This document shows positions 9,608 through 31,410 of a DNA stretch of 64,000 bases, piece by piece. The translations under genes were made by a program, and so were the position numbers. Source of the stretch: Sideroxyarcus sp. (GTDB taxonomy: Bacteria > Pseudomonadota > Gammaproteobacteria > Burkholderiales > Gallionellaceae); contig JAUSBR010000004.1 in NCBI GenBank assembly GCA_030651895.1, positions 124,001 to 188,000 of the forward strand, written 5' to 3'. The notes beneath the pieces are model-generated. The model saw only the letters and a list, made by a program, of their open reading frames with translations. It had not been told where the DNA came from and did no database searches. Each line of letters begins with the position of its first letter. The first letter of the stretch is position 1.

Positions 9608-9832
9608 TCAGGGTTGTGATTGTTCTTCCTGCGGTGTTTCAAGCACCGATTCGGCCCAGCCCGCTGCCGCACCCGCGCCCCATGACAACAGTGCGGCGAG
9701 CACGAAGGTCAGCATGCCGCGCGTCATGCCTTTGGGAATACCCTGCTCGTCGAGAAAACGGCGAATATAGAAAATGCCGATGAAGAAGGCGAAAGTGGAG
9801 ACCAGCAGGCTCCACAGCGAGAACGCGGGCAT
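9608..9832 (-). CDS. Small two-helix membrane protein downstream of ubiT
   Basis: 74 residues with two hydrophobic helices (about 4-22 and 34-52) separated by a charged loop, and a polar tail. The start ATG at 9832 overlaps the ubiT stop by one base (TGATG), which implies translational coupling. An upstream in-frame start at 9871 would sit inside ubiT and was rejected. I do not recognise the family. The position suggests a link to the anaerobic ubiquinone genes, but that is only inference from location. Confidence 0.65.
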   Translation of the reverse strand: MPAFSLWSLLVSTFAFFIGIFYIRRFLDEQGIPKGMTRGMLTFVLAALLSWGAGAAAGWAESVLETPQEEQSQP

Positions 9833-10272
9833 CAGTGGCTCAAGCCCGGCACCTTGGGCATCTGCGGCCACTCCACCGCGTCCAGCATGTTCTTCACCAC
9901 CAGACCGAGCTCGGTGTCGCCCTCGATGGATAGCTCACGATTGAAGAACAAAGTGTCCGGATCTTCCTGACGGGCGATCATCTGCATGAAGGCCGAGAGG
10001 TTGGCGCGGAAGGAAAGATCGGGTGTCGCGGGTGCGGTGAACAGCGGGCGGAACAGGCCGTTGCGGTAGGTGAAGTTCGCTTTGCCGCCGGTATCCAGCA
10101 CTTCGACAAAGAAGGTACGGCCTTCGAGCAGGTCCAGGCTGTCCTGCGGCAGCAGCTTCATCTTCACGGCGGCGTTCAGTCCGGCGATCAGCGTCACCGA
10201 GTGCGGCCATTGCGGCAGGCGACCGCCGATGCGCGAGACCAGTGCGGGTAGTTTGAATTTAGGAATGTTCAT
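9832..10272 (-). CDS. ubiT: SCP2-domain ubiquinone biosynthesis accessory protein UbiT
   Basis: 146 residues with a sterol-carrier-protein-2-type lipid-binding domain (LEGRTFFVEVLDTGGKANFTY, then PDLSFRANLSAFMQM). The UbiT (YhbT) family binds polyprenyl lipids and is required for ubiquinone synthesis without oxygen, together with UbiU and UbiV. Those two genes lie just upstream on the same strand, which supports this call over UbiJ, the aerobic paralogue. A 200-base spacer with palindromic repeats separates it from ubiV. Start at 10272, with AAGGAG about 7 bases before the ATG. Confidence 0.87.
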   Translation of the reverse strand: MNIPKFKLPALVSRIGGRLPQWPHSVTLIAGLNAAVKMKLLPQDSLDLLEGRTFFVEVLDTGGKANFTYRNGLFRPLFTAPATPDLSFRANLSAFMQMIARQEDPDTLFFNRELSIEGDTELGLVVKNMLDAVEWPQMPKVPGLSH

Positions 10273-10340
10273 TTTTTACTCCTTGCTATTGATCCAGCAT
10301 ATATCTGATTACCATTCTGCTCACATTAAACTGATACGCT

Positions 10341-10455
10341 CCCTTCCCCCGCAAGCGGGGGAAGGGCCGGGGATGAGGGGCGGTGCTTACATCCAAAACT
10401 GATTTCAATTTACCGTCCCTCACCCCAGCCCCTCTCCCGCCTGCGGGAGAGGGGC
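10341..10455. repeat. Pair of inverted CCCTCTCCCGC-type palindromic repeats
   Basis: Two long hairpin elements in opposite orientation fill the ubiV-ubiT spacer. The first (10341-10366) is CCCTTCCCCCGC/GCGGGGGAAGGG with a 2-base loop. The second (10428-10455) is GCCCCTCTCCCGC/GCGGGAGAGGGGC with a 2-base loop, flanked by CCCTCACCCCA. The flank GGGGATGAGGG after the first is the same family reversed. A third, partial copy lies at 56926-56960. This is a REP-like family frequent between genes in proteobacteria; here the pair may attenuate transcription or stabilise the upstream ubiUV message. Confidence 0.8.
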
Positions 10456-10472
10456 TTCCAGCAAGCCGACTC

Positions 10473-11372
10473 CTACGTTGCGCGTTCCTGTTCAACCAGG
10501 TGATGCTGCGCAATCCCCGCATCGCCGAACCAGTACCCATCCACCAGCCCGTCGGCACACCATGCACCGGTATCCGCATGCGGCGTCCCGCCCTTACGCG
10601 CCGCGTCGAAGGCGGCGATGATCTCGTTCATGTGCTGCGGTTGCGGGCTGATGCGGATTATGTCGATGCCCATCTTGAGCAGGTCCGGCACTTCGTTGAG
10701 CAGATTGTAACTCTGCGCCGACATGGTCTGGATACCGTTGATGGTCAGGAAGGGTTGGCCCTCGCGCGTCTTCAGCGTGATGCCTTCCGGATGTTCCATG
10801 CACTTGAACTGACAGTCGTCCTTGTTGAGGTCGTAATGGCGCGCGGTGAAGCAGCGCGCCGAGAAAGCCAGTGCTAACTTGCCATGCACGAACACTTCGG
10901 TCTCGATGCCTGCGGGACGGCTGTTGTGCAGCGTCTCGACCAGTTTGCGGTCGGCCTCCAGCGGCGGCACCCAGCGCTGCATGCCGTAGCGCGCGTAGGT
11001 GGTCAGCGTGCTTTCGTTGTAGATGTTGAGGTGCGGACCGGCGACGAAGGGACGACCAGCGGCGATGTTCACCGCACCGAGGTCGTTGGCCTCGACCTGG
11101 CAATTGGCCTCATCGATCAGACGACGCAGCGATTTCAGGTCGCTCTCGGATTCGAGCAGTGCCTGTGCCGAGATGACGACTTCCTTGCCGGCGTCGGTGA
11201 GTGTGCGTGCCAGCGCGATCCAGTCGGCCACGCGCAACTGCTGGCGGCGCGAACACACCACTTCGCCGACGTAGATGATGTCGAGCGCGGGGTTCTGCGC
11301 CATCTCGGCGTAGAAATCGAGCACGGCCTGTTTCGGCCAGAAATACAGCAAAGGTCCCAGAGCGAGTTTCAT
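10473..11372 (-). CDS. ubiV: Oxygen-independent ubiquinone hydroxylation protein UbiV
   Basis: 299 residues, U32-peptidase-like TIM-barrel family. UbiV forms a heterodimer with UbiU and carries a 4Fe-4S cluster needed for anaerobic hydroxylation steps of ubiquinone synthesis. The four likely ligands are present in the E. coli arrangement: Cys40 (EVVCSRRQQ), Cys174 (SARCFTARH), Cys187 and Cys191 ([10 protein letters not shown]). The start at 11372 was chosen because GGAG lies 8 bases before it and only four bases separate it from the ubiU stop; an earlier in-frame start at 11402 overlaps ubiU. Probably expressed with ubiU from the FNR-type promoter upstream. Confidence 0.95.
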
Positions 11373-11376
11373 ATGC

Positions 11377-12390
11377 TTATCTCCAGGGGCGGCTGTATGC
11401 ACCCAGCGTCGCCTGGCTGCCTTCCGACACCTTGGCCAGCTCCGCCTGCCAGGCCTGCTTCACCTGGTAGCGCTCGCCGTCTTTGGCCAATGCATCCAGC
11501 GCGGCGCGCATGTTGCGGGTGACCTGCGCGACATAAGTCGGGCTGCGCTGACGGCCTTCGACCTTGATGGCGGCGACGCCGATGCGCGCGATCTCGGGCA
11601 GTATCTCCAGCACGTTGAGGCTGGTCGGTTCTTCCAGTGCGTAATAGGTGGAGCCGTTCACCTCGAAGCGGCCCTTGCACAGCGTGGGGTAACCCGCCGC
11701 CTCGTTGTCGCCGAAGCGGTCGATGAGGATGCCGTTCAATCGCGTGGACATCATGCCCGGCGACTTCTCCCACTTGACGTACTTGGCGGGTGAGCACGCG
11801 CCCACTGTGTTAGGCGATTCGCCGGTGGCATAGGAGGAAAGCCAGCAGCGGCCCTCGTTCATCACGCACAGGCTGCCGAAGCCGAACACCTCGATCTCGA
11901 CCGTGGTGTGCTTGATCACGTTCTCCACCTGCGCCAGCGTCAGCACGCGCGGCAGCACCGCACGGCGAACACCGAATTCGCGCTGCGCAAAATTCACCGC
12001 CTCATAACTGGTGGCCGAGCCCTGCACCGAAAGATGCAGGCGCAGATCGGGATGGCGCTTGGATGCGTAATCGAGCAGACCGACATCGGCGAGGATCACC
12101 GCATCCACGCCGAGCGCGGCGGCACCATCGACGGCGCGATGCCAATCGGCCACGCGCCCCGGTTGCGGAAAAGTATTGATCGCCATCAACACCTCGCGCT
12201 TCTTCGCGTGCGCATAGCTGATGCCCTCGCGCAGCGCCTTGTCGTCGAAGTTGAGCCCGGCGAAATTACGCGCGTTGGTATCGTTCTTGTAACCGAGATA
12301 AACAGCGTCCGCGCCGTTATCGACCGCCACCTTCAGGGCGGGCAGGCTGCCGGCGGGACAGATGAGCTGGGGGATGTTGGGGTGCGACAT
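11377..12390 (-). CDS. ubiU: Oxygen-independent ubiquinone hydroxylation protein UbiU
   Basis: 337 residues, U32 family, partner of UbiV. The signature region [13 protein letters not shown]...[10 protein letters not shown] and TLCKGRF gives four cysteines (175, 182, 199, 238) that match the known 4Fe-4S ligand pattern of E. coli UbiU. First gene of the ubiU-ubiV(-ubiT) unit; ubiV follows after four bases. Upstream lies a perfect FNR-type palindrome and a fitting -10 box, so oxygen control is likely. Length and motifs are those of a full, intact protein. Confidence 0.96.
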
Positions 12391-12417
12391 GAAATGACTC
12401 TTGGTGGAAATGTGGCA

Positions 12418-12458
12418 AGTATAGCCACACCGGGGAAGAGCGCATTGATGATTATCAA
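12418..12458 (-). promoter_or_regulatory. FNR-type box and -10 element upstream of ubiU
   Basis: TTGAT-GATT-ATCAA (12445-12458) is a perfect match to the FNR/ANR consensus TTGATnnnnATCAA. On the minus strand a TATACT -10 element lies at 12423-12418. Its expected start site (about 12411) puts the box centre near -41, the class II activator position. The only gene downstream is ubiU, whose start lies 27 bases beyond the -10. The match and spacing are seen directly; control by an FNR protein is inferred. Confidence 0.8.
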
Positions 12459-12626
12459 CTCACAAGGGGAATAGTTGAGCGGAACGGACAGTTACATTCA
12501 TCTACCCGCCATGTAACCACTCCAGCACACAGATACAGATGGAAGCGGGGTTGGATTCATTTTCATCACTACCATTCATCATTTTGAATAATTCGACTCA
12601 GTCTCCCGACACCGCATTCTGCCTGC

Positions 12627-12980
12627 TCAAACCAGCACTTGCCGGGTGCTCATCATATACAGTTCGATTTGCTGTTCCAGATCGGAATCCGTCATCACTT
12701 CGGGCCGCCTGCCTTGCGGGCAGGCAAGCATCGGGGTGGTTCCGAACAGACGGCAGATCAACGGGCGTTCCGCATAGACTTCGCAGCCATTTTTACCAAG
12801 GTAAGGACAGTTTAGTTCTGCCAGCGCAGCATCATGCTCCGCGATACTTTTAACGGGCAGCCTTGCCATTTCTTCGGGGGAAGTGGTCACGGGTCCGCAG
12901 CAGTCGTGACAGCCGACAAGGCATTCAAAGGCAGGAATATGCTTCCTGAAAAAGCGGATCTTTTTGCTGTTTCCGGTCAT
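12627..12980 (-). CDS. YkgJ-type cysteine-cluster protein
   Basis: 117 residues. It carries ECLVGCHDCCGPV near residues 19-31 and CPYLGKNGCEVYAERPLIC near 58-76, the cysteine pattern of the YkgJ/CxxCxxCC family annotated as a possible zinc- or iron-binding site. The biochemical role of this family is not known. The start overlaps the stop of the spermidine-synthase-like gene by four bases (ATGA), so the two are translationally coupled and trail the hydrogenase-like operon. It could serve metal or cluster handling for that complex, but this is only context. Confidence 0.8.
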   Translation of the reverse strand: MTGNSKKIRFFRKHIPAFECLVGCHDCCGPVTTSPEEMARLPVKSIAEHDAALAELNCPYLGKNGCEVYAERPLICRLFGTTPMLACPQGRRPEVMTDSDLEQQIELYMMSTRQVLV

Positions 12981-13819
12981 TCAGGCGCCGCGCTATGCAT
13001 GGCCCCGGCAGCAAGTGCCGCGATGAGTTTTTTCGATTTCGCCTGGAAATTGAGGGGGTGGGACTGCGCGAGTGCATTGACGTGCTGCTTGATTCTGGCC
13101 GGAGACAAAGTGAGCCCGCTGTTTTTGAACGCCAAAACGATTTTATTGGGACTGTCGTCGGCATTCACCATAACGATGCGCCCGGCAAAACTGGTTTCTA
13201 TGCGCGAGGCCAGGGCACCGTGAAGACCGTCGGTGCTCCACAAATTGACCACCATGATGCCGTCGTCTGCCAGCGACGCAAAACAGTCGTCGTAAAACTG
13301 CTGGCTGCACAATTCATCCGGCAATCCTGTCGTATCGAATCCGTCCACCATCAGCACATCGAACAGTTCGCTGCTTTCTTTCACGAATACCGCCCCGTCG
13401 CCGAGCAGTACTTTGAAGCGTGCATCGTCGGCGGGAATCGCGAATTCATTGCGCAAGGCGATGACATCCGGATTGATCTCGACAACCGCGATTTCCGCGC
13501 CCGGCAAATAGCGGTAGCAATACTTGGCCAGCGAACCGCCGCCCAGGCCAATCATCGCGATACGTTTTGGGGACGGTTCGAACAACAGGAAACTCATCAT
13601 GGCCCGCGTATAGCTGAAGACCAGTTGGTCCGGATCGTCGATGTTCATTTCGCTTTGCAGACACAGCGCATCAAACTGCAAAGACAGCATCCCGTCGTTC
13701 TCCAGCAAATAGGGTTTCCCCGGCTCTGCTTGCGGATCGGACGACAATGCGAGCAGTTGCCCCAACTTCTGGCACAACGTCCCGGTCAAACCTTTGGCGG
13801 ATCTATTCTTGCGCGACAT
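12977..13819 (-). CDS. Spermidine-synthase-like methyltransferase-fold protein
   Basis: 280 residues with a Rossmann core: MIGLGGGSLAKYCYRYLP (motif I), VEINPDVIALRNEF and GDGAVFVKE, followed by FDVLMVDGFD. This is the spermidine/spermine synthase superfamily. Residues for aminopropyl transfer cannot be confirmed by eye, and many such standalone proteins are not proven polyamine enzymes. The start lies 17 bases inside the end of the hydrogenase-like small-subunit gene and the stop overlaps the YkgJ-type gene, so it is part of the same transcription unit. Cytosolic. Substrate unknown. Confidence 0.75.
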   Translation of the reverse strand: MSRKNRSAKGLTGTLCQKLGQLLALSSDPQAEPGKPYLLENDGMLSLQFDALCLQSEMNIDDPDQLVFSYTRAMMSFLLFEPSPKRIAMIGLGGGSLAKYCYRYLPGAEIAVVEINPDVIALRNEFAIPADDARFKVLLGDGAVFVKESSELFDVLMVDGFDTTGLPDELCSQQFYDDCFASLADDGIMVVNLWSTDGLHGALASRIETSFAGRIVMVNADDSPNKIVLAFKNSGLTLSPARIKQHVNALAQSHPLNFQAKSKKLIAALAAGAMHSAAPE

Positions 13820-14354
13820 TGCGACCGGCAGATATTGCCGTGAGAATTCCCTGCAGTATGGCGACAGGCGTTGGGGGGCAGCCGCTCACCGCGACATCCA
13901 CCGGGATGACGTTGGAAACCTTGCCGCAGGTGGCGTAGTTCTCGCCCGCGCCAGTAGCGCCATCCGAACAAAAGATGCCGCCGTCGCAGGCGCAGTCGCC
14001 GATGGCCACCACCAGTTTGGGTTCGGGGGTGGCGTCGTAGGTGCGCTTGAGCGCGATTTCCATGTGGCGCGAGACGGGGCCGGTGACCAGCAACAGGTCG
14101 GCATGACGCGGACCGGCGACGAATTTGATGCCGAGCCCTTCGATGTTGTAATAGGCATTGTTGACGGCGTGTATCTCCAGCTCACAGCCGTTGCAGGAAC
14201 CGGCATCGACCTGGCGGATGCTCAGCGCACCGCCGAACACATCAAGTATCTCCTGTTGCAGACGCTGTTCGGTCAGGCGCATTGATTCGTCCGCCTGCGG
14301 CGGCGTCTCCGTCTTGATTCCTGTCTTGATGATTTGTTTGAGTATCTGGTACAT
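13803..14354 (-). CDS. Hydrogenase-4/NuoB-like 4Fe-4S small subunit
   Basis: 183 residues, HycG/HyfI/NuoB family. The ligands of the proximal 4Fe-4S cluster are kept: Cys54 and Cys57 (SCNGCELE), Cys121 or Cys123 (GDCACDGG) and Cys159 (SGCPPTP). It is much shorter than E. coli HyfI and ends soon after the last ligand. In complex I and group 4 hydrogenases this subunit passes electrons at the junction with the membrane arm. Its partner large subunit (overlap TGATG) has lost the NiFe ligands, so the electron partner here is unclear. Cytoplasmic face of the membrane. Confidence 0.9.
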   Translation of the reverse strand: MYQILKQIIKTGIKTETPPQADESMRLTEQRLQQEILDVFGGALSIRQVDAGSCNGCELEIHAVNNAYYNIEGLGIKFVAGPRHADLLLVTGPVSRHMEIALKRTYDATPEPKLVVAIGDCACDGGIFCSDGATGAGENYATCGKVSNVIPVDVAVSGCPPTPVAILQGILTAISAGRNVAQE

Positions 14355-15904
14355 CAGAGATCCTGCCCTGAGTAGCTAAGGTTGAACGACTTATTGATCA
14401 GCGGAAAATCCGGCACGATGTTGTCGATGACGGCGTGTTCCAGCACGGGCCAGTTCTGCCAGGACGGATCGTGCGGATGCACGCGCGTGAGATTGCCCTG
14501 CGCATCGGTATGGATGGCGACCATCACTTCGCCGCGCCAGCCTTCGACCAGGCCGATGCCGAAGCCGTTTGCAGGCAGTTTCTCCAGCAGGGTGGGCGCT
14601 TCGTTGTCGTGCACCAGATTGACCATGATCTCGCGCTGCAGGCGCAGCGACTCGAACAGCTCGTCGAAGCGCACGATGACGCGTGCCGCGACATCGCCGT
14701 TGCGGTAGGTCGCCATCTTCACGTCCAGTTTGTCGTAGGGGGCGCAGGCGAACTGCACGCGCGCATCCCAGGCTTGCGCACTGGCGCGACCGGCCATGCC
14801 GCACAGGCCGAGTTGCGCGGCCAGTTTGGGCTCGACGCGGCCGGTGCCGATGAAGCGGTCCTGCACGCCGGCATGTTCGTCGTAGATGTTGCGCAGGATG
14901 CGCACCTGCTCGTCGAGCATGTCGCATTCCTGCTCAATGATGTGCTTGCCCTCAACATCGAGACTGGCGGTAACGCCGCCGGGGACGATCTTGTCCATCA
15001 GATAGCGGTGACCGAACAGCGCAGCGTTGTTGCGCAGCACTTGCTCCTTGAGTATCCAGAACTGGGCGAAGCCGAACGACAGCGCGACGTCGTTGCCCAG
15101 ATAACCGAGATCGCCGAGATGGTTGGCGACGCGTTCGCGCTCCAGCAGCAACGCACGCATCCACAAGGCGCGGCTGGATGGCGTCACTTTGGAGATACAT
15201 TCCGCCGCCATCGCATAGGCCCAGGCATAGGCCACGGTGCTGTCGCCGCTCACGCGCCCGGCCAGCTTGGCGCCCTGCTGCAGACCCATGCTCTCGAAGC
15301 GTTTCTCGATGCCCTTGTGGGTGTAGCCGAGATGTTGTTCGAGGCGCAGCACGCGCTCGCCGATGATGGAGAAACGGAAATGGCCCGGCTCGATGATGCC
15401 CGCATGCACCGGACCGACCGGGATCTCGTGCACGCCCTGCCCCTCCACCTGCACGAAAGGATAGTCCTCCGGTTCATGGGTGAGACTGGCTGCGGCATCG
15501 AAATCCTTGCGCAGCGGGAAGCTGCCGCTGTGCCAGGCGCCGTGGCGCAACCATTTGCGGTGGTCGTGACCTTCGTGCGCGTAGAGGCCGAGCAAATCGT
15601 AGGCAGCGCGCTGCATGCGGTTGGCAGCGGGGAAGATGCGGCTGATGTCGGGGTAGTTCGGGCGCTCTGCCGGCAGCGGTATGTTGAGACAGACCAGGCC
15701 GCTCTCGTTCATCAGCGTGATATGCAAAACAAAACCACCGCCTTGTTGCCGGACATCGCTGCCCCACAATGCGACCAGCCTGCCGCCGCCGTCGCGCACC
15801 TGCTGGCATATCTCGAACAGATACTCAGGCGCGACCTCCCCGGCCCATGCAGGCACAGCATCAGTGAGTCTGGTGAGTTTTAGGTTGGGGTGTTTGATCG
15901 GCAT
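14354..15904 (-). CDS. Hydrogenase-4 large-subunit-like protein lacking all NiFe ligands (Ehr type)
   Basis: 516 residues: a NuoC-like N-terminal domain (about 1-120) fused to a NuoD/HyfG-like domain, the HycE/HyfG layout. The two NiFe-binding motifs are destroyed. Where HycE has RVCGIC, this protein reads RVSGDS (217-222). Where HycE has DPCYSC, it reads NLSYSG (508-513), anchored by the matching DxPLI upstream. Thus all four cysteines are Ser, Ser, Ser and Gly, and no NiFe centre can form. The rest of the domain is well conserved, so it is not a decaying gene. This is the hallmark of energy-converting-hydrogenase-related (Ehr) complexes, thought to be intermediates between group 4 hydrogenases and complex I. 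Four bases downstream of the HyfF-like gene. Confidence 0.9.
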   Translation of the reverse strand: MPIKHPNLKLTRLTDAVPAWAGEVAPEYLFEICQQVRDGGGRLVALWGSDVRQQGGGFVLHITLMNESGLVCLNIPLPAERPNYPDISRIFPAANRMQRAAYDLLGLYAHEGHDHRKWLRHGAWHSGSFPLRKDFDAAASLTHEPEDYPFVQVEGQGVHEIPVGPVHAGIIEPGHFRFSIIGERVLRLEQHLGYTHKGIEKRFESMGLQQGAKLAGRVSGDSTVAYAWAYAMAAECISKVTPSSRALWMRALLLERERVANHLGDLGYLGNDVALSFGFAQFWILKEQVLRNNAALFGHRYLMDKIVPGGVTASLDVEGKHIIEQECDMLDEQVRILRNIYDEHAGVQDRFIGTGRVEPKLAAQLGLCGMAGRASAQAWDARVQFACAPYDKLDVKMATYRNGDVAARVIVRFDELFESLRLQREIMVNLVHDNEAPTLLEKLPANGFGIGLVEGWRGEVMVAIHTDAQGNLTRVHPHDPSWQNWPVLEHAVIDNIVPDFPLINKSFNLSYSGQDL

Positions 15905-15908
15905 CGTT

Positions 15909-17366
15909 CTATCCTAACAGCGCAGCGGCCTGGCGGTACCAGTCGGCCAGATAGGGCGGCATGTACAGGCCCAGCATCAGCACCAGCAGCAGGTGTGCGA
16001 ACACCGGAATCAACGCGGGCGAATGCGGCAAGGGTTTGGCGGTGGTCTCGCCGAACACGATGGGCTGTATCTTGCCGAAGATGGCCGCGAAGGCGACACC
16101 GAGCGAGACCAGCAGGATGGGCGTGGCCCACGGGTATTCGTGCATGGCGGTGGTGATGATGAGGAACTCGCTGGCGAACACGCCGAATGGCGGCATGCCG
16201 AGGATGGCGAAGGTGCCGAGTGCCAGACCCCAGCCGACCGTGGGGCTGACTTGCAGCAGACCGCGGATGCTGTCCATCTGTTGCGTGCCGACCTTTTGCA
16301 CGGCGTGGCCGACAGCAAAGAAGATGGCCGACTTGGTCAGCGAATGTACAGTCATGTGCAGCATGCCCGCGAAGGTTGCCACCGGACCTCCCATGCCGAA
16401 GGCGAAGGTGATCAGCCCCATGTGTTCGATGGATGAGTAGGCGAACATGCGCTTGATATCTTTTTGCCGGAACAGCGAGAACGAAGCCACCAGCACCGAG
16501 AGCAAGCCGAAGCCCATCATCAGGTTGCCCGCAAAGTGGGTGCCGAGCGAACCGTCCACCAGCACCTTGCTGCGCACCACCGCGCACAATGCGACATTGA
16601 GCAGCAGGCCGGAGAGCACGGCGGAGACGGGTGTCGGGCCTTCGGCATGCGCATCCGGCAGCCAGCTGTGCAGCGGCACCAGACCGATCTTGGTGCCGTA
16701 ACCCACCAACAGGAAGATGAAAGCGAGCTTGAGGACGGTGGGTTCGAGATCGCCCTTCACCTGGTTGAGGTGCGTCCACAGCAGCGCAGTACCCCCCTGC
16801 CCCAGCACCCGCTCGGCGGCGAAATACAACAGGATGGTGCCGAACAGCGCCAGCGCGATGCCGACGCCACACAGGATGAAATATTTCCATGCCGCTTCCA
16901 GGCTGGCCGGGGTGCGGTACAACGACACCAGCAGCACAGTGGTCAGCGTTGCCGCTTCCATCGCGACCCAGACGATGCCCATGTTGTTGGTGGTGAGCGC
17001 GACCAGCATGGCGAAGGTGAACAGCTGGTACATGCTGTAGTAGAGATGCAGCATGCCGGTGGTGAGTTTGCCGTGATGCTGCTCGATGCGCATGTAAGGG
17101 CGCGAGAACAGCGAGGTGGTGAAGGCGACGAAGGCAGTCAGCGCGACGAGGAAGACGTTGAACTGGTCGATGAAGAACTGCTCGTTGAACGCGACCTGCG
17201 GACCGGAGTCAACCACGCGTACGGTGAGCACCACCGAAGCGGCGAAGGTGAAGAAGCTCATCAGCGAGTTGAGTTCCGCCGCCCACTTGCGCGAACCGAA
17301 CACGGCCAGCAGACCGCCGCCCAGCAGCGGGATGAGCAACAGCGCGAGAAGCTGAAGATCAATCAT
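15909..17366 (-). CDS. HyfF-like antiporter-type membrane subunit
   Basis: 485 residues, polytopic (about 14 hydrophobic helices), Mrp/NuoL-M-N superfamily. The conserved core GYGTKIGLVPLHSWLPDAH...PTPVSAVLSG is present, with buried Lys and His residues of the ion channel path. In the helix after this, LLLNVALCAVVR has Asn where NuoL/M carry Lys, as in other HyfF-type subunits. The start at 17366 overlaps the HyfE-like gene by 8 bases; a longer frame to 17510 lies inside that gene and was rejected. One of two antiporter-like subunits of the complex, presumed to move H+ or Na+ across the inner membrane. Confidence 0.9.
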   Translation of the reverse strand: MIDLQLLALLLIPLLGGGLLAVFGSRKWAAELNSLMSFFTFAASVVLTVRVVDSGPQVAFNEQFFIDQFNVFLVALTAFVAFTTSLFSRPYMRIEQHHGKLTTGMLHLYYSMYQLFTFAMLVALTTNNMGIVWVAMEAATLTTVLLVSLYRTPASLEAAWKYFILCGVGIALALFGTILLYFAAERVLGQGGTALLWTHLNQVKGDLEPTVLKLAFIFLLVGYGTKIGLVPLHSWLPDAHAEGPTPVSAVLSGLLLNVALCAVVRSKVLVDGSLGTHFAGNLMMGFGLLSVLVASFSLFRQKDIKRMFAYSSIEHMGLITFAFGMGGPVATFAGMLHMTVHSLTKSAIFFAVGHAVQKVGTQQMDSIRGLLQVSPTVGWGLALGTFAILGMPPFGVFASEFLIITTAMHEYPWATPILLVSLGVAFAAIFGKIQPIVFGETTAKPLPHSPALIPVFAHLLLVLMLGLYMPPYLADWYRQAAALLG

Positions 17367-18024
17367 CCTTGAGCTTCTCCATATGGGTGATGTCGAGGCT
17401 ATCGAAGGTCTCGCGGATCTGGAAGAAGAACACGCCGAAGATGAAGGTGGCGACCAGCACGTCGAGCGCGATGCCCAGCTCCACCACCAGCGGCATACCC
17501 TGAGTCGCACTGGTGGCGGCGAAGAACAGGCCGTTCTCCAGCGACAGGAAGGCGACCACCTGCGACACCGCCTTGCGCCGCGTCAGCATCATCAGCAGCG
17601 ACAGCAGCACACAGGCCAGCGCGATGCCGATAAGACCGCGCGTGATGCCTTCGGCCAGTTGCGAGATGGGCGCCGCCAGGTTGAAGGAGAAGATCACCAG
17701 CGCGATGCCGACCAGCATGGTGGTGGGGATGTTGATCAGCGTCTCCACGTCCCAGCGCACGTTGAGCCGGTGGATCAGACGGTGCAGCAAGTACGGCAGC
17801 AATATCACCTTGAGCAGCAGCGTCAGCCCGGCCGAGTAATAGAGATGGTGCTGGTTGGTCGAGTACGCAACGATGAAGGTGCTCAGCGCCAGCAGCGCGC
17901 CCTGCCAGGCGAACAGGTTGATCAGCGACAGGATGCGCCGCTGCGCCAGCATGGCGAAAGCGATCAGCAGCAGCAATGCAGCCAGCAGGTTGATGAACTG
18001 GAGGGTGTACGGTATCTGCATCAT
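17359..18024 (-). CDS. HyfE-like membrane subunit
   Basis: 221 residues with about six hydrophobic helices, matching HyfE (216 residues in E. coli), which combines NuoK-like features with extra helices. The core LSLENGLFFAATSATQGMP and a conserved acidic residue in VELGIALDVL resemble NuoK/MrpC. The start at 18024 forms an ATGA overlap with the HyfC-like stop; a second ATG directly follows at 18021. Ends LDITHMEKLKDD. Part of the six-gene membrane complex. Confidence 0.87.
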   Translation of the reverse strand: MMQIPYTLQFINLLAALLLLIAFAMLAQRRILSLINLFAWQGALLALSTFIVAYSTNQHHLYYSAGLTLLLKVILLPYLLHRLIHRLNVRWDVETLINIPTTMLVGIALVIFSFNLAAPISQLAEGITRGLIGIALACVLLSLLMMLTRRKAVSQVVAFLSLENGLFFAATSATQGMPLVVELGIALDVLVATFIFGVFFFQIRETFDSLDITHMEKLKDD

Positions 18025-18983
18025 GCCCCCAGCAGGAAATGGATCAGCAGACCGAGCACGGCCAGCAGAAAGGCGGTGCCGAGGAACTCGGGCGCGCGGA
18101 AGATGCGCAGCTTGGCTGAGACGATCTCGAACACGGCAAGCCCGGCGCCTGCCAGCATCAGTTTCAGCAGCAGCAGGACGATGGCCAGCGGCAGTCCGGC
18201 CCAGTTGCCCACCTCGATGATGCCGTGCGGGACGAAAAGCGCAATGCCGATGGAGATGTAGGCAAACAGCTTCAGGCTGCTGGCCCATTCGATCAGCGCC
18301 AGATGTCGCGCGGAGTATTCCAGGATCATCGCCTCGTGGATCATGGTGAGTTCGAGGTGGGTGGCCGGATTGTCCACCGGGATGCGCGCGTTCTCGGCCA
18401 GCAGCACAATTACGAAAGCCAGTGCGGCGAAGGCAAGACTGGGATACAGCACGAACTGGTGATGCGCCAGTGTGTCAACGATACTTGGCAACTGTGTGGA
18501 ATGGCTGATCATCGAGGCGGTGAACAGCACCATCAGCAGCGCCGGTTCGGCCAGAAAGGACACCAGCATCTCGCGCCGCGCCCCAAGCGAACCGAACGCG
18601 GTGCCGATGTCCATCGCGGCAAGCGAGATGAACACGCGCGCCAGCGCGAACACGCCGACCAACGCGATCACGTCGGCGGCCTGAGAAAAAGGCAAGTCCA
18701 CCGCAATGATCGGGATGATGGCCGCCGCCAGCCACATACAGCCGAACACGATGTAAGGCGTGACGCGGAACAGCCAGGACGCGTTGTGCGCGATCACCGC
18801 ATCCTTGTGGAACAGCTTGCGCAGCACGCGGTAGGGCTGCAGCACGCCCGCGCCGCTACGGTTCTGCAGCCATGCCTGGCACTGGTTGACCCAGCCGGTC
18901 AGCAGCGGCGCCAGCAACACAACCAGCAGCAGTTGCGCGAGCTGGAAGAGGATGGCGAGGAGGAGGTCGTAGTTTTCCATCAT
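18021..18983 (-). CDS. HyfC/NuoH-like membrane subunit
   Basis: 320 residues, about eight helices, similar to HyfC/HycD (about 315). The signature ENARIPVDNPATHLELTM followed by IHEAMILEYS is the NuoH-family loop that in complex I lies at the quinone channel entrance. Its presence means the link between the peripheral and membrane arms is kept even though the NiFe site is lost. Start at 18983 (ATGA overlap with the HyfB-like stop). A quinone site is possible but cannot be proven from sequence. Confidence 0.92.
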   Translation of the reverse strand: MMENYDLLLAILFQLAQLLLVVLLAPLLTGWVNQCQAWLQNRSGAGVLQPYRVLRKLFHKDAVIAHNASWLFRVTPYIVFGCMWLAAAIIPIIAVDLPFSQAADVIALVGVFALARVFISLAAMDIGTAFGSLGARREMLVSFLAEPALLMVLFTASMISHSTQLPSIVDTLAHHQFVLYPSLAFAALAFVIVLLAENARIPVDNPATHLELTMIHEAMILEYSARHLALIEWASSLKLFAYISIGIALFVPHGIIEVGNWAGLPLAIVLLLLKLMLAGAGLAVFEIVSAKLRIFRAPEFLGTAFLLAVLGLLIHFLLGA

Positions 18984-20989
18984 ACGAACACCAGCAGCAC
19001 GATCAGCGTGACAAAGGTATAAGTCAGGTACAGATGGATGCGCCCGTGCTGCAACAGCCCGGCCATGGAAGAAAATTTCTCGGTGAGATGTTTGATCGGC
19101 AGATACAGGATGTACCACAGGCGATCATCGCTCTGCCCGTGATAGCGCGGATGCGTGTCGAACGGACTCGGTACGTCTCGCTCGATCTTGAAGAACGGCT
19201 CGAAGATGCGGCGTATCGGCTGGCCGAAACCTTCGGCGGTATCCTGCATGCGCGCGGTCTGCGCGGGGAAGCCGCAATCCCACGGGTCGCTGCGCCGCAC
19301 GCGGCCGTGATACAGGCGGCGTACCAGCACTGAAGTCAGCAGCATCACGCCCAGCACCGCCAACATGAAATACAGCGGGCTGTAGCTGGCGCGTTCGGTA
19401 TCGACCGGCGCGAGGAATATCCAGTTTCCGGCGGCATTGCCCAGTTGCGCACCCAGCAGCATCTGCGACACGTGATCCAATTGCCCCACCACATACACCG
19501 GCGCCAGCCCCAGCAGCACACAGGCCAGTGCCAACCAACCCATGCCGATGCGCTCCCAGATGCCCGCATCGTGCGCGTGCTCCAGCGCATGTTCGCGCGG
19601 CTGGCCGAGAAAGATCACGCCGTAGAACTTCACCATCACATAGGCTGCCAGCGCCGCGGCGAGCGCGATCACCGCCGCCGCCACCGGCACCAGCATATTG
19701 ATGTAACTGTTGGGCAGACCGGGTGACAGCAGGAAAGCCTGCAGCAGCAGCCATTCCGAGACGAAACCGTTGAGCGGCGGCAATCCGGAAATGGCCAACA
19801 CGCCGACCAGCATCAAGCCCGAGGCCCATGGCATGCGGCGGATGAGGCCACCGAGGCGTCCCATGTTGCGCTCGCCGGTGGCGTGCAGGATGGCACCGGT
19901 GCCGACGAACAGCAGGCTTTTGAACATCGCATGGTTGAGACTGTGATACAGCGTTGCGGTGAGCGCCAGCGCCGCCAGTGCGTCCTTGCCGTAAACGTGG
20001 AAGATGAGGGTGAGGCCGATGCCGACCAGCAGCAGGCCGATGTTCTCGATGGAGGAATACGCCAGCAGGCGTTTCATGTCGCCCTGCACGGCGGCGAACA
20101 TCACGCCGAACACGGCGGTGAGCAGGCCCAGCCCGAGTGCCAGCACGCCCCACCACCACAGTTGCGTGTCGAGCAGGTCGAAGGTGACGCGCAGGATGCC
20201 GTAGATGGCGGTCTTCAGCATCACGCCACTCATCAATGCGGACACCGGCGACGGCGCGGCGGGGTGCGCCTCGGGCAGCCAGACATGCATAGGCAACACG
20301 CCGGCTTTTGCGCCGAAACCGAACAGGGCGAGCAGGAAGGCGGCCGAGGACCAGAACGGATCGAGTTGCGCGGCGCGCATCGCATCGAAGGTGTATGCGG
20401 CGATGCCGTTGCCGCCCTGCATCACGCCGAAACTCAAGAGGATGGCGATGGCGCCGACGTGCGCGATCAGCAGATAGAGGTAGCCTGCCTTGCGGATGTC
20501 GGGGATGGCGTGATCGGTGGTGACGAGGAAGTAGGAAGCCAGCGCCATGGTCTCCCACGCCACCATGAACATATAGGCATCGTCGGCCAGCAACACCAAT
20601 GTCATGCCGATGAGGAACAGGTGATATTCGAGACACAGCAGTCCGAGTGTGCTGCCCGCCATGGTCTTGAAGTAGCCGGCGCTGAACAGCGACACGCCCA
20701 GCGAGGCTGCACCCAACAAGATCAAAAAGAAACCGGAGAGCGAATCGAGACGCAGATGGAATGGCAGATCGGGCAAACCCAGCGGCAACACCATGACGCC
20801 GGTCGGCATAGCCAGTGCCCACAAGCCGGTGGCGGCCAGCAGCAGCGAGGTGAGCGCACTGAGCGGAAAGACGATGTTGTTGATCAGCTGCGGCGCACGT
20901 TGCAGGAACAGCCCGGCCACTCCGAGGGCGATCCAGAACTGCACCAGCCAGCCAGCCACATCCAGCGGTAATATCCCAACAGCGTTCAT
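18980..20989 (-). CDS. HyfB-like antiporter-type membrane subunit, first gene of the operon
   Basis: 669 residues, nearly the same as E. coli HyfB (672), highly hydrophobic with about 16 helices. The core GFGAKAGVLPMHVWLPEAHP...SPVSALMSGVMLKTAIYGILR carries the Lys/His residues of ion-translocating NuoL/M/MrpA-type subunits. A cytoplasmic C-terminal region (about 570-640) contains WDCGF, as in other HyfB proteins. A plausible sigma-70 promoter lies 48 bases upstream. Gene order B-C-E-F-G-I with overlaps throughout; D, A and H equivalents are absent here. Confidence 0.93.
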   Translation of the reverse strand: MNAVGILPLDVAGWLVQFWIALGVAGLFLQRAPQLINNIVFPLSALTSLLLAATGLWALAMPTGVMVLPLGLPDLPFHLRLDSLSGFFLILLGAASLGVSLFSAGYFKTMAGSTLGLLCLEYHLFLIGMTLVLLADDAYMFMVAWETMALASYFLVTTDHAIPDIRKAGYLYLLIAHVGAIAILLSFGVMQGGNGIAAYTFDAMRAAQLDPFWSSAAFLLALFGFGAKAGVLPMHVWLPEAHPAAPSPVSALMSGVMLKTAIYGILRVTFDLLDTQLWWWGVLALGLGLLTAVFGVMFAAVQGDMKRLLAYSSIENIGLLLVGIGLTLIFHVYGKDALAALALTATLYHSLNHAMFKSLLFVGTGAILHATGERNMGRLGGLIRRMPWASGLMLVGVLAISGLPPLNGFVSEWLLLQAFLLSPGLPNSYINMLVPVAAAVIALAAALAAYVMVKFYGVIFLGQPREHALEHAHDAGIWERIGMGWLALACVLLGLAPVYVVGQLDHVSQMLLGAQLGNAAGNWIFLAPVDTERASYSPLYFMLAVLGVMLLTSVLVRRLYHGRVRRSDPWDCGFPAQTARMQDTAEGFGQPIRRIFEPFFKIERDVPSPFDTHPRYHGQSDDRLWYILYLPIKHLTEKFSSMAGLLQHGRIHLYLTYTFVTLIVLLVFV

Positions 20990-27426: not shown

Positions 27427-30400
27427 CTAACGCTTCTTGTACCAGTCGAAGAATTCTCCCGCAGGCATGGGATAGGCGATGCAGTAGCCCTGCCCGTAAT
27501 GGCAGCCCATTTCGCGCAAGGGCTGTAGCAGGTTCTTGTCTTCCACCCCCTCCGCCACAGTCAACCGGCCGAAAGTGCCGGCCAGTGCAATCACTCCCTT
27601 CACGATGGCATGGTCGCCCTCGTCCGACAGCATGCCACGCACGAAGGACTGGTCGATCTTGAGCGTCTCCGCGCCCAGCTTGCTCAGATAGAGCAGCGAT
27701 GAATAACCCGTGCCAAAATCATCCAGCGCGAAGCTGACACCCAGCTTGCGGCAGGCATCGATGATGGCGGCGGATTGCACCATATCCTCCAGCGCTGCTG
27801 TCTCCAGCACCTCGATCTGCAGTCTGCCCGGCGGCAGGGATGGATACTGATCGAGCCTTCGTTCCAGTTCCTCCACAAAATCAAATGCCTGCAGATGCCG
27901 CGCCGAGATGTTGATGCTGACCTCCAGCGCCACGCCTTCACGCTCCCAAGCATGCAGTTGTGCCAGCGCCGTGTCGATCACCCAGTTGCCCAGCGCTATC
28001 TCAAAATCCGAATTCTCGATGACGGGCAGGAAGTCGGCCGGCGGCAGCAGCCCCTGCTCGGGATGGTTCCAGCGGATCAGGGCCTCGACCCCGGCGATCC
28101 TGCCGGAGGCCAGTTCCATCTTGGGCTGGTAATACAGTTCGAATTCTTCCTGCTGCAGACCGAGCAGGATGCGTCTTCTCGACTCATGCAGCGAGCGCAT
28201 GCGCTGATCGTGCGCCGAGTCGTACTGGTGATAGTGGTTCTTGCCGGTCTGCTTGGCGATATACATGGCCTGATCGGCATGGCGCATCAGCGTGTCGCCA
28301 TCCTCGTCGTCGGCAGGATAAAAAGTCACACCGATGCTGGCCGACACACCGACCTGCTGGCTGCCGGAACGCATGGGAGTGGCGATCGTCTCCATGACGC
28401 GATCCAGGATCTGGAAACACTCGTTAGTCTCTTCGAGATCGTTGAACAACAAGACGAACTCATCGCCCCCCAGACGCGCCAGAGTGTCTCCCGCGCGCAG
28501 CACTTCCTGCAGACGGCGGGTGATATCCACCAGCAACTGGTCGCCCACCTCGTGACCGAACCGGTCGTTGACCTCCTTGAAACCGTCGAGGTCGATATAG
28601 CACACTGCCAGCATCTTGCCACTGCGTTGCGCGTGCAGGATAGCCTGCCCCAGACGGTCGGCCAGCAGGCGGCGGTTGGGCACGCCGGTGAGTGCATCGA
28701 AGTTGGCGACACGGCTGAGTTCGGCCTCGTGATCCTTGAAATCGGTGATATCGGAAAACACGCCGACATGGCGCTGCACCCTGCCTACCGCATCGCAGAT
28801 GGCCGAGATAGACAGCAGTTCCGCGTATATCTCGCCGTTCTTGCGCCGGTTCCATATCTCGCCGCGCCAAACCTTTTCCTCCTGGAGCGCAGCCCACATC
28901 GCGGCGTAGAAGGCCTTGTCCTGGCGGCCCGAGTTCAGCAGGCCGGGATCCTTGCCCAGCACTTCCTCCCGCGCATAGCCGGTGATCCTGCTGAAAGCGT
29001 GATTGACATCGATGATGTTGTTGTTCGCATCGGTAATGACGATCGCTTCCTGGCTGGTATCGAACACACTGGCATTGATGCGCAGGGTCTCTTCCGCCCT
29101 GTGCCGGTCGGTGATGTCGTACTGGATGCCGTCCCAGAGGATGTCGCCGTTCTCCTGCAGGGTGGGTTGCGACTCGATATGCAGCCAGCGCACTTCGCCG
29201 TTCTTGCGCACGATGCGCCCCTCCCACTCGAAACGGCTCAGGATGCGGCGGGACGCTTCGTTCATCTGTACGAACCGCTCCTGCTCGTCCGGATGGATAT
29301 GCGCCAGGGCGGCGCGGTGGTCGCGCATGACTTCCGCCTCGCTCACATCGAGCAATTCGCACCAGCGCGAACTCACGAATTCGAAGATCGTACGACCGTC
29401 CGCACACATGCAATATTTGTACACGCCGACCGGTATCGTTTGCACCAGGCCACTGTACTCGTCCAAGCTGCGGTGCAGCGCCTCATCTGCTCGCTTGCGA
29501 TCGGTGATGTCGCGGCCTATTCCCAACGCCCCGATGACCACCCCCTGTTCGTCGCGCTCGGCGACAAAAACAAGATGGTGTGCATGCAAACCGCCGTCCG
29601 GGTGCAGCATCTCCAATTCCAGCTCCACACTTTCGCCGCTGTCCATGACGCGCTCGACCAGGCGTTGCAGATCGCGTATCTGGGCCGAATCGGGAGTACC
29701 TTCGATGGGCGTCTTGCCGATCGTCGGCAACAATTCCGCCGCGATGCTGCGCAACATCGCCGGATTCATGTAATGCACCCGGCAGTCGCGGTCGTAACGG
29801 ATGATATTGTCGGGCAGATTCTCCGCCAGCGCGCGGAACTCCTGCGCACTGCTGGCCAACCCGCGCCTGATACGCTCGCGCTCGGTGATATCGCGGCCGA
29901 TTGCCAGCGCACCGACGATATCGCCGCCCAAGTCACGCGCAGCGACAAAGACGATGTGGTGAAGGTGCATCTCGCCATCCGGATGCGGAACCGTCATCTC
30001 CAGCTCTGCCGTCTCGCCGTTCGCGATGACTGCCTCGAGCACCTGTTGGTAAGCTACCGCCTGCGGGACGTCCTGAAACGATTCCGCCGGCTTCTCACCC
30101 AGGATCGGTTGCGCAAGCGCGGCGACATTCCTTGCCAATGCCGGATTCACATATCTCGCCCTGCCTTCCCGGTCATAGCGGATTAGACTGTCCGGCATGC
30201 TCTCCGCGAGCATACGGAACTCCCGCTCGCTCTCGGCCAGGGCGCTCTTGACGTGCTCGTGCTCGGTGATGTCGCGCGCCACGCCCAGCACGCCGATGAG
30301 TCTCCCCTGACCATCGCGCATCGGCGTCTTGAGCGTCTCGAACAGGCCGCGATAGCCGTCCGCGGCGAATGTCAGCCATTCCTCGTTCACGCTCGGTTTG

Positions 30401-31410
30401 CCTGCCGCCATCGCTTTGCGGTCATGTTCACGGAAGAAATCGGCCTTATCCCTGTCCACGAAGTCGTAGTCCGTCTTGCCGACGATATCCTTTTCCTCCG
30501 CCCCGAAGAACGACCCGAAGCGACGGTTGCAGGCCAGATAGACCCCGTCGCCGTCTTTCAGCCAGACCAGGTCGGGAATGGTGTCGATGAAGGTGCGCAG
30601 GAATATCTCATCCACCTCGAAACGCTCGTCCTGCATGCCCAGCGCCATGGTCTGGGTGAGATCGTGTTCGCTCACCAGCCCGGCCAGCTTGCCCGCGCCG
30701 TCGACCACGGCCAGATGGCGCACCTTTCTCTCCAGCATGAGATTGGCCGCGTCGTTGATGGTCGCCTCGCCGGTGATGGTCAACACCGGTGCGGTCATCA
30801 CTTCGGCCAGGTGGACGCCGACCCGCAGCGGATCGCGCGAATAGAAGCGCACCACATCGCGTTCGGTAACGATGCCCACCGGCTTTTCATCCACAACCAC
30901 GATCACGCAGGACTCGCGCTGCGCCTGCATCAAGTTGAGCGCCTGCAAGAGGCTGCTATGCGGCGGCAGACTGGTGACGGTGCGTTTGGCGACGGTGATA
31001 ACCTGACGGCGCCCGGCCAGCGCGGTGAGGTTGAGGTGCTGGCGGAAGTCAGTCTCGCTGACCACGCCGGCCACGACGCCCTTGTCGTCCACCAGCACCA
31101 GATGTCGGATACCCTCGTGCAGACAGGTCTGATAGGCGTCCAGGCAATGCGCCGATGCGGGAACGGTGACGACCGGCGCGGACATGCTGCTGCGCACCGA
31201 CGTTTCTGGCGGGGACCCGGAGCGCATCGCGTGCAGGATATTGCGTTCGGTGACGATACCTAACGGATGCCCGGACACGTCGGTCACCACGATGGAGGAA
31301 TAGCGGCGCTGCGCCATGATCTCCGCGGCCGCGCCCAGAGTGGACTCGACGGGAAGGCAGACGACATCGCGTGTGGCAATATCGAGCAGCATGTTTGCCT
31401 GATTGGTCAT
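27427..31410 (-). CDS. CBS-PAS-GGDEF-EAL c-di-GMP signalling protein
   Basis: 1327 residues, cytosolic, with no membrane segments. Order: four CBS motifs (about 1-255, two Bateman pairs), five PAS/PAC-type modules (about 265-890, several ending GRDIT or YDITD), a GGDEF domain with intact GGDEF at about 980, and an EAL domain with intact EAL (about 1107) and DDFGTGYSS. Both catalytic signatures are complete, so it could make and break c-di-GMP under control of adenine nucleotides (CBS) and redox or small ligands (PAS). The two central PAS repeats (HPDGEMHLHHIVFVAARD and HPDGGLHAHHLVFVAERD) are near duplicates. It starts 36 bases after the Crp-family gene, so it is probably the third gene of that operon. 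Confidence 0.93.
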   Translation of the reverse strand: MTNQANMLLDIATRDVVCLPVESTLGAAAEIMAQRRYSSIVVTDVSGHPLGIVTERNILHAMRSGSPPETSVRSSMSAPVVTVPASAHCLDAYQTCLHEGIRHLVLVDDKGVVAGVVSETDFRQHLNLTALAGRRQVITVAKRTVTSLPPHSSLLQALNLMQAQRESCVIVVVDEKPVGIVTERDVVRFYSRDPLRVGVHLAEVMTAPVLTITGEATINDAANLMLERKVRHLAVVDGAGKLAGLVSEHDLTQTMALGMQDERFEVDEIFLRTFIDTIPDLVWLKDGDGVYLACNRRFGSFFGAEEKDIVGKTDYDFVDRDKADFFREHDRKAMAAGKPSVNEEWLTFAADGYRGLFETLKTPMRDGQGRLIGVLGVARDITEHEHVKSALAESEREFRMLAESMPDSLIRYDREGRARYVNPALARNVAALAQPILGEKPAESFQDVPQAVAYQQVLEAVIANGETAELEMTVPHPDGEMHLHHIVFVAARDLGGDIVGALAIGRDITERERIRRGLASSAQEFRALAENLPDNIIRYDRDCRVHYMNPAMLRSIAAELLPTIGKTPIEGTPDSAQIRDLQRLVERVMDSGESVELELEMLHPDGGLHAHHLVFVAERDEQGVVIGALGIGRDITDRKRADEALHRSLDEYSGLVQTIPVGVYKYCMCADGRTIFEFVSSRWCELLDVSEAEVMRDHRAALAHIHPDEQERFVQMNEASRRILSRFEWEGRIVRKNGEVRWLHIESQPTLQENGDILWDGIQYDITDRHRAEETLRINASVFDTSQEAIVITDANNNIIDVNHAFSRITGYAREEVLGKDPGLLNSGRQDKAFYAAMWAALQEEKVWRGEIWNRRKNGEIYAELLSISAICDAVGRVQRHVGVFSDITDFKDHEAELSRVANFDALTGVPNRRLLADRLGQAILHAQRSGKMLAVCYIDLDGFKEVNDRFGHEVGDQLLVDITRRLQEVLRAGDTLARLGGDEFVLLFNDLEETNECFQILDRVMETIATPMRSGSQQVGVSASIGVTFYPADDEDGDTLMRHADQAMYIAKQTGKNHYHQYDSAHDQRMRSLHESRRRILLGLQQEEFELYYQPKMELASGRIAGVEALIRWNHPEQGLLPPADFLPVIENSDFEIALGNWVIDTALAQLHAWEREGVALEVSINISARHLQAFDFVEELERRLDQYPSLPPGRLQIEVLETAALEDMVQSAAIIDACRKLGVSFALDDFGTGYSSLLYLSKLGAETLKIDQSFVRGMLSDEGDHAIVKGVIALAGTFGRLTVAEGVEDKNLLQPLREMGCHYGQGYCIAYPMPAGEFFDWYKKR

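Follow-up and report, generated by a model that had tools for sequence, protein, structure and literature searches.

The window analysed here is a stretch of 64,000 nucleotides from Sideroxyarcus sp. (contig JAUSBR010000004.1, positions 124,001 to 188,000 of the forward strand). On its minus strand, running from 20989 to 13803, lie six open reading frames that encode, in that order, HyfB, HyfC, HyfE, HyfF, HyfG and HyfI, the subunits of a hydrogenase-4-like membrane complex. A preliminary description of this DNA had named the same gene set and had called the six genes overlapping; four of the five junctions do overlap, but hyfF and hyfG are separated by 4 bases. The transcription unit extends past hyfI to a spermidine-synthase-like gene and then to a gene for a CxxCxxCC protein, and both are probably co-transcribed with the hyf genes.

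18980..20989, minus strand: hyfB, antiporter-like channel subunit (NCBIfam NF005086, 926 bits, cut-off 667)
18021..18980, minus strand: hyfC, NuoH-like subunit (PF00146, E 1.3e-34), overlapping hyfB by 1 base
17359..18024, minus strand: hyfE, small membrane subunit (NF008556, 81 bits, below the cut-off of 136), overlapping hyfC by 4 bases
15909..17366, minus strand: hyfF, antiporter-like channel subunit (NF005045, 883 bits, cut-off 543)
14354..15904, minus strand: hyfG, NuoC-NuoD-like large subunit without NiFe ligands (PF00346 and PF00329; HycE alignment)
13803..14354, minus strand: hyfI, NuoB-like subunit with four cluster cysteines (PF01058, E 1.4e-30)
12977..13819, minus strand: spermidine-synthase-like gene (PF01564, E 9e-15; below the NCBIfam cut-off), overlapping hyfI by 17 bases
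12627..12980, minus strand: CxxCxxCC (zinc/iron-chelating) protein (PF03692, E 1.7e-10), overlapping the spermidine-synthase-like gene by 4 bases

The six hyf genes specify a complex of the Ehr type that has the architecture of hydrogenase-4 and no ferredoxin subunit at the locus; the loss of the NiFe ligands and the conservation of the six-gene unit carry this conclusion. In HyfG, residues 217-222 read RVSGDS and residues 508-513 read NLSYSG, opposite RVCGIC and DPCYSC of E. coli HycE in the 7z0s alignment, so that cysteine stands at none of the four nickel-ligand positions. The preliminary description had read the same replacements from the window, and alignment with HycE bears it out. Two NiFe-binding CxxC motifs in the large subunit, a mark of group 4 [NiFe]-hydrogenases, are thus missing, as is a ferredoxin-type HyfA or HyfH at the locus. 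The membrane subunits HyfB and HyfF that mark the group are present, and both exceed the NCBIfam cut-offs for hydrogenase 4 subunits; HyfE matches the hydrogenase-4 membrane subunit with a score under its cut-off. With its four nickel ligands replaced the complex should not be a hydrogenase, and it is almost certain that it is not one.

The replacements are shared across the family. Over 195 aligned HyfG rows the most frequent patterns, GRVSGDST and NKSFNLSYSG, are near-fixed, with the first cysteine retained in at least four rows; this set takes in a few distant relatives (25-31% identical), one of which, L225, is an intact hydrogenase with RICGIC and DPCFSC. In 11 diverse orthologues the ligand positions hold S, then S, T or N, then S, then G. 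D221, D349, D479, N504 and K505 are among the residues that the family keeps almost without exception (190-191 of the 195 rows) and that are different in E. coli HyfG and in the host's NuoD. The AlphaFold model of HyfG has a mean pLDDT of 83.5 and is poor at residues 147-197, which lie close to where the active site used to be; its best structural match is 7z0s_E, followed by complex I. HyfG as an active hydrogenase in its own right was rejected on the loss of the nickel ligands, and HyfG as a relic was rejected on its strong conservation; to judge from the residues, the old active site looks remodelled and not simply vacated. In principle the membrane parts could be joined by a NiFe large subunit from elsewhere to make a working hydrogenase, and the host genome does hold three NiFeSe_Hases matches, two of them full-length and one split. 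HyfG, however, is intact and has a mean column identity of 56% over 64 sequences, so it looks neither replaced nor decaying, and such an arrangement is very improbable. Large-subunit relatives that are about 30% identical (L260, L261 and L224) have also lost the NiFe motifs, with different replacements; one of these stretches, L261, carries two such ligand-less clusters facing one another.

The redox and ion-translocating parts of the complex have been retained. Three of the cluster cysteines of HyfI (Cys54, Cys57 and Cys121) are found in 186 of 186 rows and the fourth, Cys159, in 184 of 186. In HyfF, E136, K225, K304, K344 and E399 are kept in 186-188 of 188 rows, and in HyfB, E146, K228, K306, K357 and E412 are kept in 171-172 of 172. 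Because these residues are near-invariant, selection seems to maintain one cluster and an ion path, in keeping with the earlier picture of a membrane module that has a single 4Fe-4S cluster in its NuoB-like subunit. The antiporter-like subunits with their ion-path residues, together with a group 4-like large subunit that lacks the NiFe ligands, are the marks of an Ehr complex; the HycE alignment and the residue conservation support that earlier assignment. We consider it likely that the complex is a redox-linked ion translocator. Electrons would pass through the single HyfI cluster to an acceptor in the rebuilt pocket at the former NiFe site, and their transfer would drive, or be driven by, the movement of H+ or Na+ through HyfC, HyfE, HyfF and HyfB.

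The preliminary description had also suggested a quinone pocket, on the grounds that a NuoH-like loop is kept, and this part did not hold up. The loop residues are largely common to the window's HyfC and to E. coli HyfC, which belongs to a hydrogenase that is not known to use quinone. In complex I a tyrosine of NuoD binds the quinone head, as in Thermus thermophilus, and what we take to be the position of that tyrosine aligns with Gly220 of HyfG. The glycine and the shared loop give no support to a complex-I-type quinone site, and the canonical site was rejected. The hint of a quinone pocket is thus weak, though quinone might be used in some other mode.

No HyfA/HyfH-type ferredoxin gene was found in the hyf operon by the profile matches of its genes, and neither was NuoI or an NADH-oxidising module; counterparts of hyfA, hyfD, hyfH and hyfJ are absent from the window locus. 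Maturation and formate dehydrogenase genes, likewise reported as missing by the preliminary description, were not seen among the operon genes. Searched with E. coli HyfH, the host assembly (2.1 Mb, 73% complete) gives its top match on contig 10, in an open reading frame that directly adjoins a nuoH-like gene and is therefore taken as NuoI; the host's nuo genes are on that contig.

The complex is widespread and patchy. It occurs in 22 of the 34 genomes of the host genus, the host included, and several near-complete genomes of the genus are without it, which makes it accessory. Across the order it was found in 80 of 300 sampled genomes, a count made after six genomes with HyfG alignment hits of 1e-67 to 1e-87 (G223, G040, G173, G210, G241 and G303) had been dropped. 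In the class sample it was found in 33 of 273 other genomes, 27 of the 33 belonging to a more distant sister set; G479, G384, G533, G588 and the host genome had been dropped from that count. A scan of named genomes gave at least 576 relatives among 583 candidates, and the 80 named loci that were kept include Thiobacillus, Sulfuriferula, Accumulibacter, Rhodoferax, Ramlibacter, Paraburkholderia, Caballeronia and Rhodanobacter. Among the matches listed, the nearest named copy, 97% identical, is in a Gallionellaceae metagenome bin. Two six-gene complexes lie close together in L081 and on contig 46 of G166 (L176).

When the surroundings of the complex were compared in 20 flank loci and the window, only the six hyf genes recurred throughout. 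The absence of a ferredoxin subunit is thus a family-wide trait as far as these loci go, and a constant additional partner gene was rejected. All members of the family group together in the HyfG tree, separate from E. coli HyfG, host NuoD, L225 and the ligand-less L224, L260 and L261. Carbon-linked loci are most frequent in the clade to which the window copy belongs, where they make up 18 of 22 rows, and other carbon-linked rows stand in two further places. The rows of this tree were chosen by hand and are rich in carbon-linked loci, reference EhrL sequences were left out, support is by SH-aLRT only, and the outer branches are long, so that the root is unsure.

Genes for inorganic carbon handling recur beside the complex, and this genomic company in the clade of the window copy is what is new here. 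Neighbours were counted in 161 stretches, which include the window and four second copies or distant relatives (L216, L217, L224 and L225) and in which some genomes stand twice (L076/L178, L073/L215, L038/L095 and L044/L059, for example); the tests on 80 genomes are without doubles. SulP permease genes (PF00916) were present in 28 of the 161 stretches, and in 17 the end of a SulP gene in the same orientation lies no more than about 0.4 kb upstream of hyfB, two of the 17 being from one genome. At least 19 of the 80 genomes, from 7 families, have SulP within 10 kb of the complex, where 1.03 would be expected from the whole-genome background; the 19 is a lower bound from the matches listed, of which those on the same contig as the complex, and a few more, were taken over by hand, and the expectation is raised by SulP matches that are split. 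Among the matches listed, SulP is near the complex in 18 of 56 RuBisCO-positive complex-bearing genomes and in 1 of 24 RuBisCO-negative ones.

Carbonic anhydrases of more than one type are also found near the complex. A Cam-type gamma enzyme occurs in 13 of the 161 stretches; 12 of these copies show the His pattern that binds the metal, and the remaining one is cut. In Sulfuriferula multivorans (L076) a gamma enzyme and SulP both adjoin the complex. A CsoSCA-like enzyme occurs in seven (PF20686, 24.9 bits, cut-off 21.5), with CxDxR in six and the seventh cut; counted by genome it is present in 7 of 80, and in 6 of those 7 it lies no more than 8 kb from the complex. Beta carbonic anhydrase was not found by a motif scan of the flanks of the 80 named loci and the window, the same scan having a gamma pattern that was too strict and that missed gamma enzymes found later. 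In a stretch from another order (L238), which carries a sister-clade complex whose HyfG is 43% identical to that of the window, a CsoSCA-like enzyme begins 4 bases after hyfI and is 73% identical to the copies of the host order. That one enzyme has been recruited beside two clades of the complex hints at a shared function more strongly than any other single observation. In the L238 stretch (12124-14957) the carbonic anhydrase is followed by genes named by eye as purE- and purK-like, whose products act on CO2 or bicarbonate. CbbO and CbbQ were found in 5 of the 161 stretches and rbcL in 3. RuBisCO is present in 56 of the 80 complex-bearing genomes of the order and in 54 of the 220 others, an odds ratio of 7.2 from a statistic that ignores kinship; 17 hits of about 1e-60 to 1e-70, which we presume to be form IV RuBisCO, were dropped before these counts.

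These observations suggest a role for the complex in supplying inorganic carbon within the window copy's own clade, a role to which we give a little less than an even chance. In such a circuit the ion gradient built up by the complex would power bicarbonate import by SulP permeases, and the carbonic anhydrases would interconvert CO2 and bicarbonate for RuBisCO. A general auxiliary pump offers another explanation: a soluble low-potential donor, a ferredoxin or flavoprotein, would pass electrons through HyfI to a quinone or another carrier, and the carbon genes nearby would merely reflect the gene order of autotroph genomes. The conserved channel residues and cluster suit such a pump, as do its spread into genomes without RuBisCO (24 of 80 in the order and 15 of 33 outside it) and the Paraburkholderia, Caballeronia and Rhodoferax loci, which have no carbon-type neighbours. 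It fits poorly, however, with the proximity of SulP and carbonic anhydrase genes above chance, with the recurrence of the CsoSCA-like enzyme beside two clades, and with the glycine at the canonical quinone tyrosine position, and we regard it as unlikely, though a serious contender.

A number of points weigh against a carbon-supply role. SulP, carbonic anhydrase and CbbQ/CbbO neighbours are all absent at the window locus itself; 61 of the 80 genomes have no SulP within 10 kb among the matches listed, and 22 have no SulP at the cut-off used. The RuBisCO association within the order, where the 24 genomes just mentioned carry the complex without the enzyme, is uncorrected for kinship, and outside the order no association was seen (18 of 33 complex-bearing genomes and 109 of 240 others, odds ratio 1.4, p 0.36). 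Some SulP proteins may carry sulfate: sat- and soeABC-like genes, named by eye, adjoin a trio of host SulP genes and also the complex in L060, L227 and L228. If the neighbouring SulP proteins moved sulfate or sulfite, the complex might instead support sulfite or sulfate handling in sulfur oxidisers, and those gene neighbourhoods are what speaks for it; a sulfur-linked role leaves the gamma and CsoSCA-like carbonic anhydrases, CbbQ/CbbO and RuBisCO nearby unexplained, and it is improbable. The host's three SulP genes lie on contig 5 (L271), after the sat- and soeABC-like genes, in a sulfur-oxidation setting. A PF13247 search of the host genome gave three places, one of which adjoins these SulP genes.

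The spermidine-synthase-like gene of the window provides an indirect tie to SulP. Among its nearest kin, those in G215, G276 and G187 (L264, L265 and L266) adjoin a SulP gene and a gene for a small protein that may bind DNA and that is found repeatedly near the complex as well. A spermidine-synthase-like gene was found around the complex in 18 of the 161 stretches, the window included, and close to it in 4 of the 80 genomes (G000, G284, G297 and G318). On contig 23 of G284 (L269) no hyfI reading frame was called between hyfG and this gene, and the match to the gene has one in-frame TGA. Just downstream of the operon in the window, at 9832-12390 on the minus strand, are genes for UbiU and UbiV, both over their NCBIfam cut-offs, which are proteins of O2-independent ubiquinone synthesis; the SCP2-domain gene that follows them is presumably ubiT. 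A large signalling protein with CBS, PAS, GGDEF and EAL domains is encoded at 27427-31410 on the minus strand, and other genomes of the genus repeatedly have, upstream of the complex, a gene with much the same start.

The hyf cluster of Acidithiobacillus ferrooxidans, which we take to be AFE_2149-2154, would adjoin cbbM (AFE_2155). A. ferrooxidans SulP has been argued to carry bicarbonate, in a paper that gives cbbM as AFE_2155 (PMC6458275). The six-gene cluster of this species has been classed as non-hydrogenase, with no subunit identified in H2-grown cells (PMC7735108), and the same motifs have been described in Acidithiobacillus with their function left open (PMC6002666). A non-hydrogenase cluster of this make-up is therefore already in print, and the window complex belongs to a known kind that has no assigned function. 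In A. caldus one copy lies with carbon-fixation genes and formate dehydrogenase; another, which adjoins a beta carbonic anhydrase, was read as an H2-evolving hydrogenase that aids pH and CO2 homeostasis (PMC3826726). Elsewhere the same genes have been listed as hydrogenase in published genomes (PMC8759370), and a review has found it difficult to account for carbonic anhydrase next to the genes of formate hydrogenlyase (PMC10880623). The function of Ehr has been called unknown (PMC10284858, citing Marreiros et al. 2013).

A link to formate has been suggested more than once, for A. ferrooxidans Hyf (PMC7735108), for Geobacter Ehr, which is more abundant on formate (PMC7894505), and for Ehr of candidate phyla (PMC6349859), and formate dehydrogenase lies a few genes upstream of one A. 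caldus copy (PMC3826726). A formate dehydrogenase encoded elsewhere would, in an FDH-Ehr complex of this type, hand its electrons on. Such a gene was seen neither in the window operon nor among the recurrent neighbour clusters that could be named by eye, most clusters being unannotated and the rest of the host genome not searched, and we give the formate link a low probability. We found no mention of hyf in the available text of PMC10734462, and nothing on the ligand-less hyf family in that of PMC3770913, PMC10696704, PMC4725956 and PMC9032823. No proposal of a carbon-supply role for a ligand-less complex was found in the literature surveyed, which was covered mostly by title and abstract.

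A carbon-supply role, if true, would give an orphan relative of complex I a place in chemolithoautotrophic CO2 fixation that can be tested. It might also bear on the carbonic anhydrase genes that some autotrophs repeatedly carry next to 'formate hydrogenlyase' genes, provided that those clusters are ligand-less too. Ligand-less hydrogenase-4 clusters are widespread, and caution is called for before such genes are read as evidence of H2 metabolism.

The window complex shares with E. coli hydrogenase-4 and formate hydrogenlyase (L226, 7z0s) the architecture and the fold of HyfB, HyfC, HyfE, HyfF, HyfG and HyfI, and differs from them in having neither the NiFe ligands nor counterparts of hyfA, hyfD, hyfH and hyfJ. 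Like respiratory complex I it combines NuoB, NuoCD and NuoH parts with antiporter-like modules and has one cluster-binding subunit like that of N2; unlike complex I, its locus has no NADH module or NuoI, and Gly220 occupies the quinone tyrosine position. With the Ehr complexes of Geobacter and comammox Nitrospira it has in common a group 4-like large subunit without CxxC motifs and antiporter-like subunits. A close likeness in print, judged from printed motifs (SGD[TS][TS][AV][GA]Y and NLSYSGHDL), is to hyfBCEFGI of Acidithiobacillus, which has the same six subunits, although its printed readings are formate oxidation or unclear (PMC7735108, PMC6002666). The NDH-1MS and DAB CO2-uptake complexes also tie complex-I-type membrane subunits to carbonic anhydrase, and DabB2 resembles NuoL; DAB2 has been expressed in a laboratory E. 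coli strain deficient in carbonic anhydrase (PMC13144422). In the hyf systems, by contrast, each linked carbonic anhydrase is encoded by a gene of its own, the enzymes are of several types, and none is present at the window locus; no CupA- or DabA-type partner was seen among the eight operon genes, the rest of the genome not having been searched for one. The complex might thus be a further inorganic-carbon machine of complex-I-like build, a redox-driven, NiFe-less pump derived from hydrogenase-4 that energises the accumulation of bicarbonate or CO2 in iron- and sulfur-oxidising autotrophs, with SulP as one partner and, as the other, a carbonic anhydrase whose type is interchangeable (CsoSCA-like or gamma, or beta in A. 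caldus); this fuller proposal is tentative, with the balance tilted against it. Its working mode would resemble that of the cyanobacterial NDH-1 CO2-uptake complexes and of DAB, assembled in this case from hydrogenase-4 parts.

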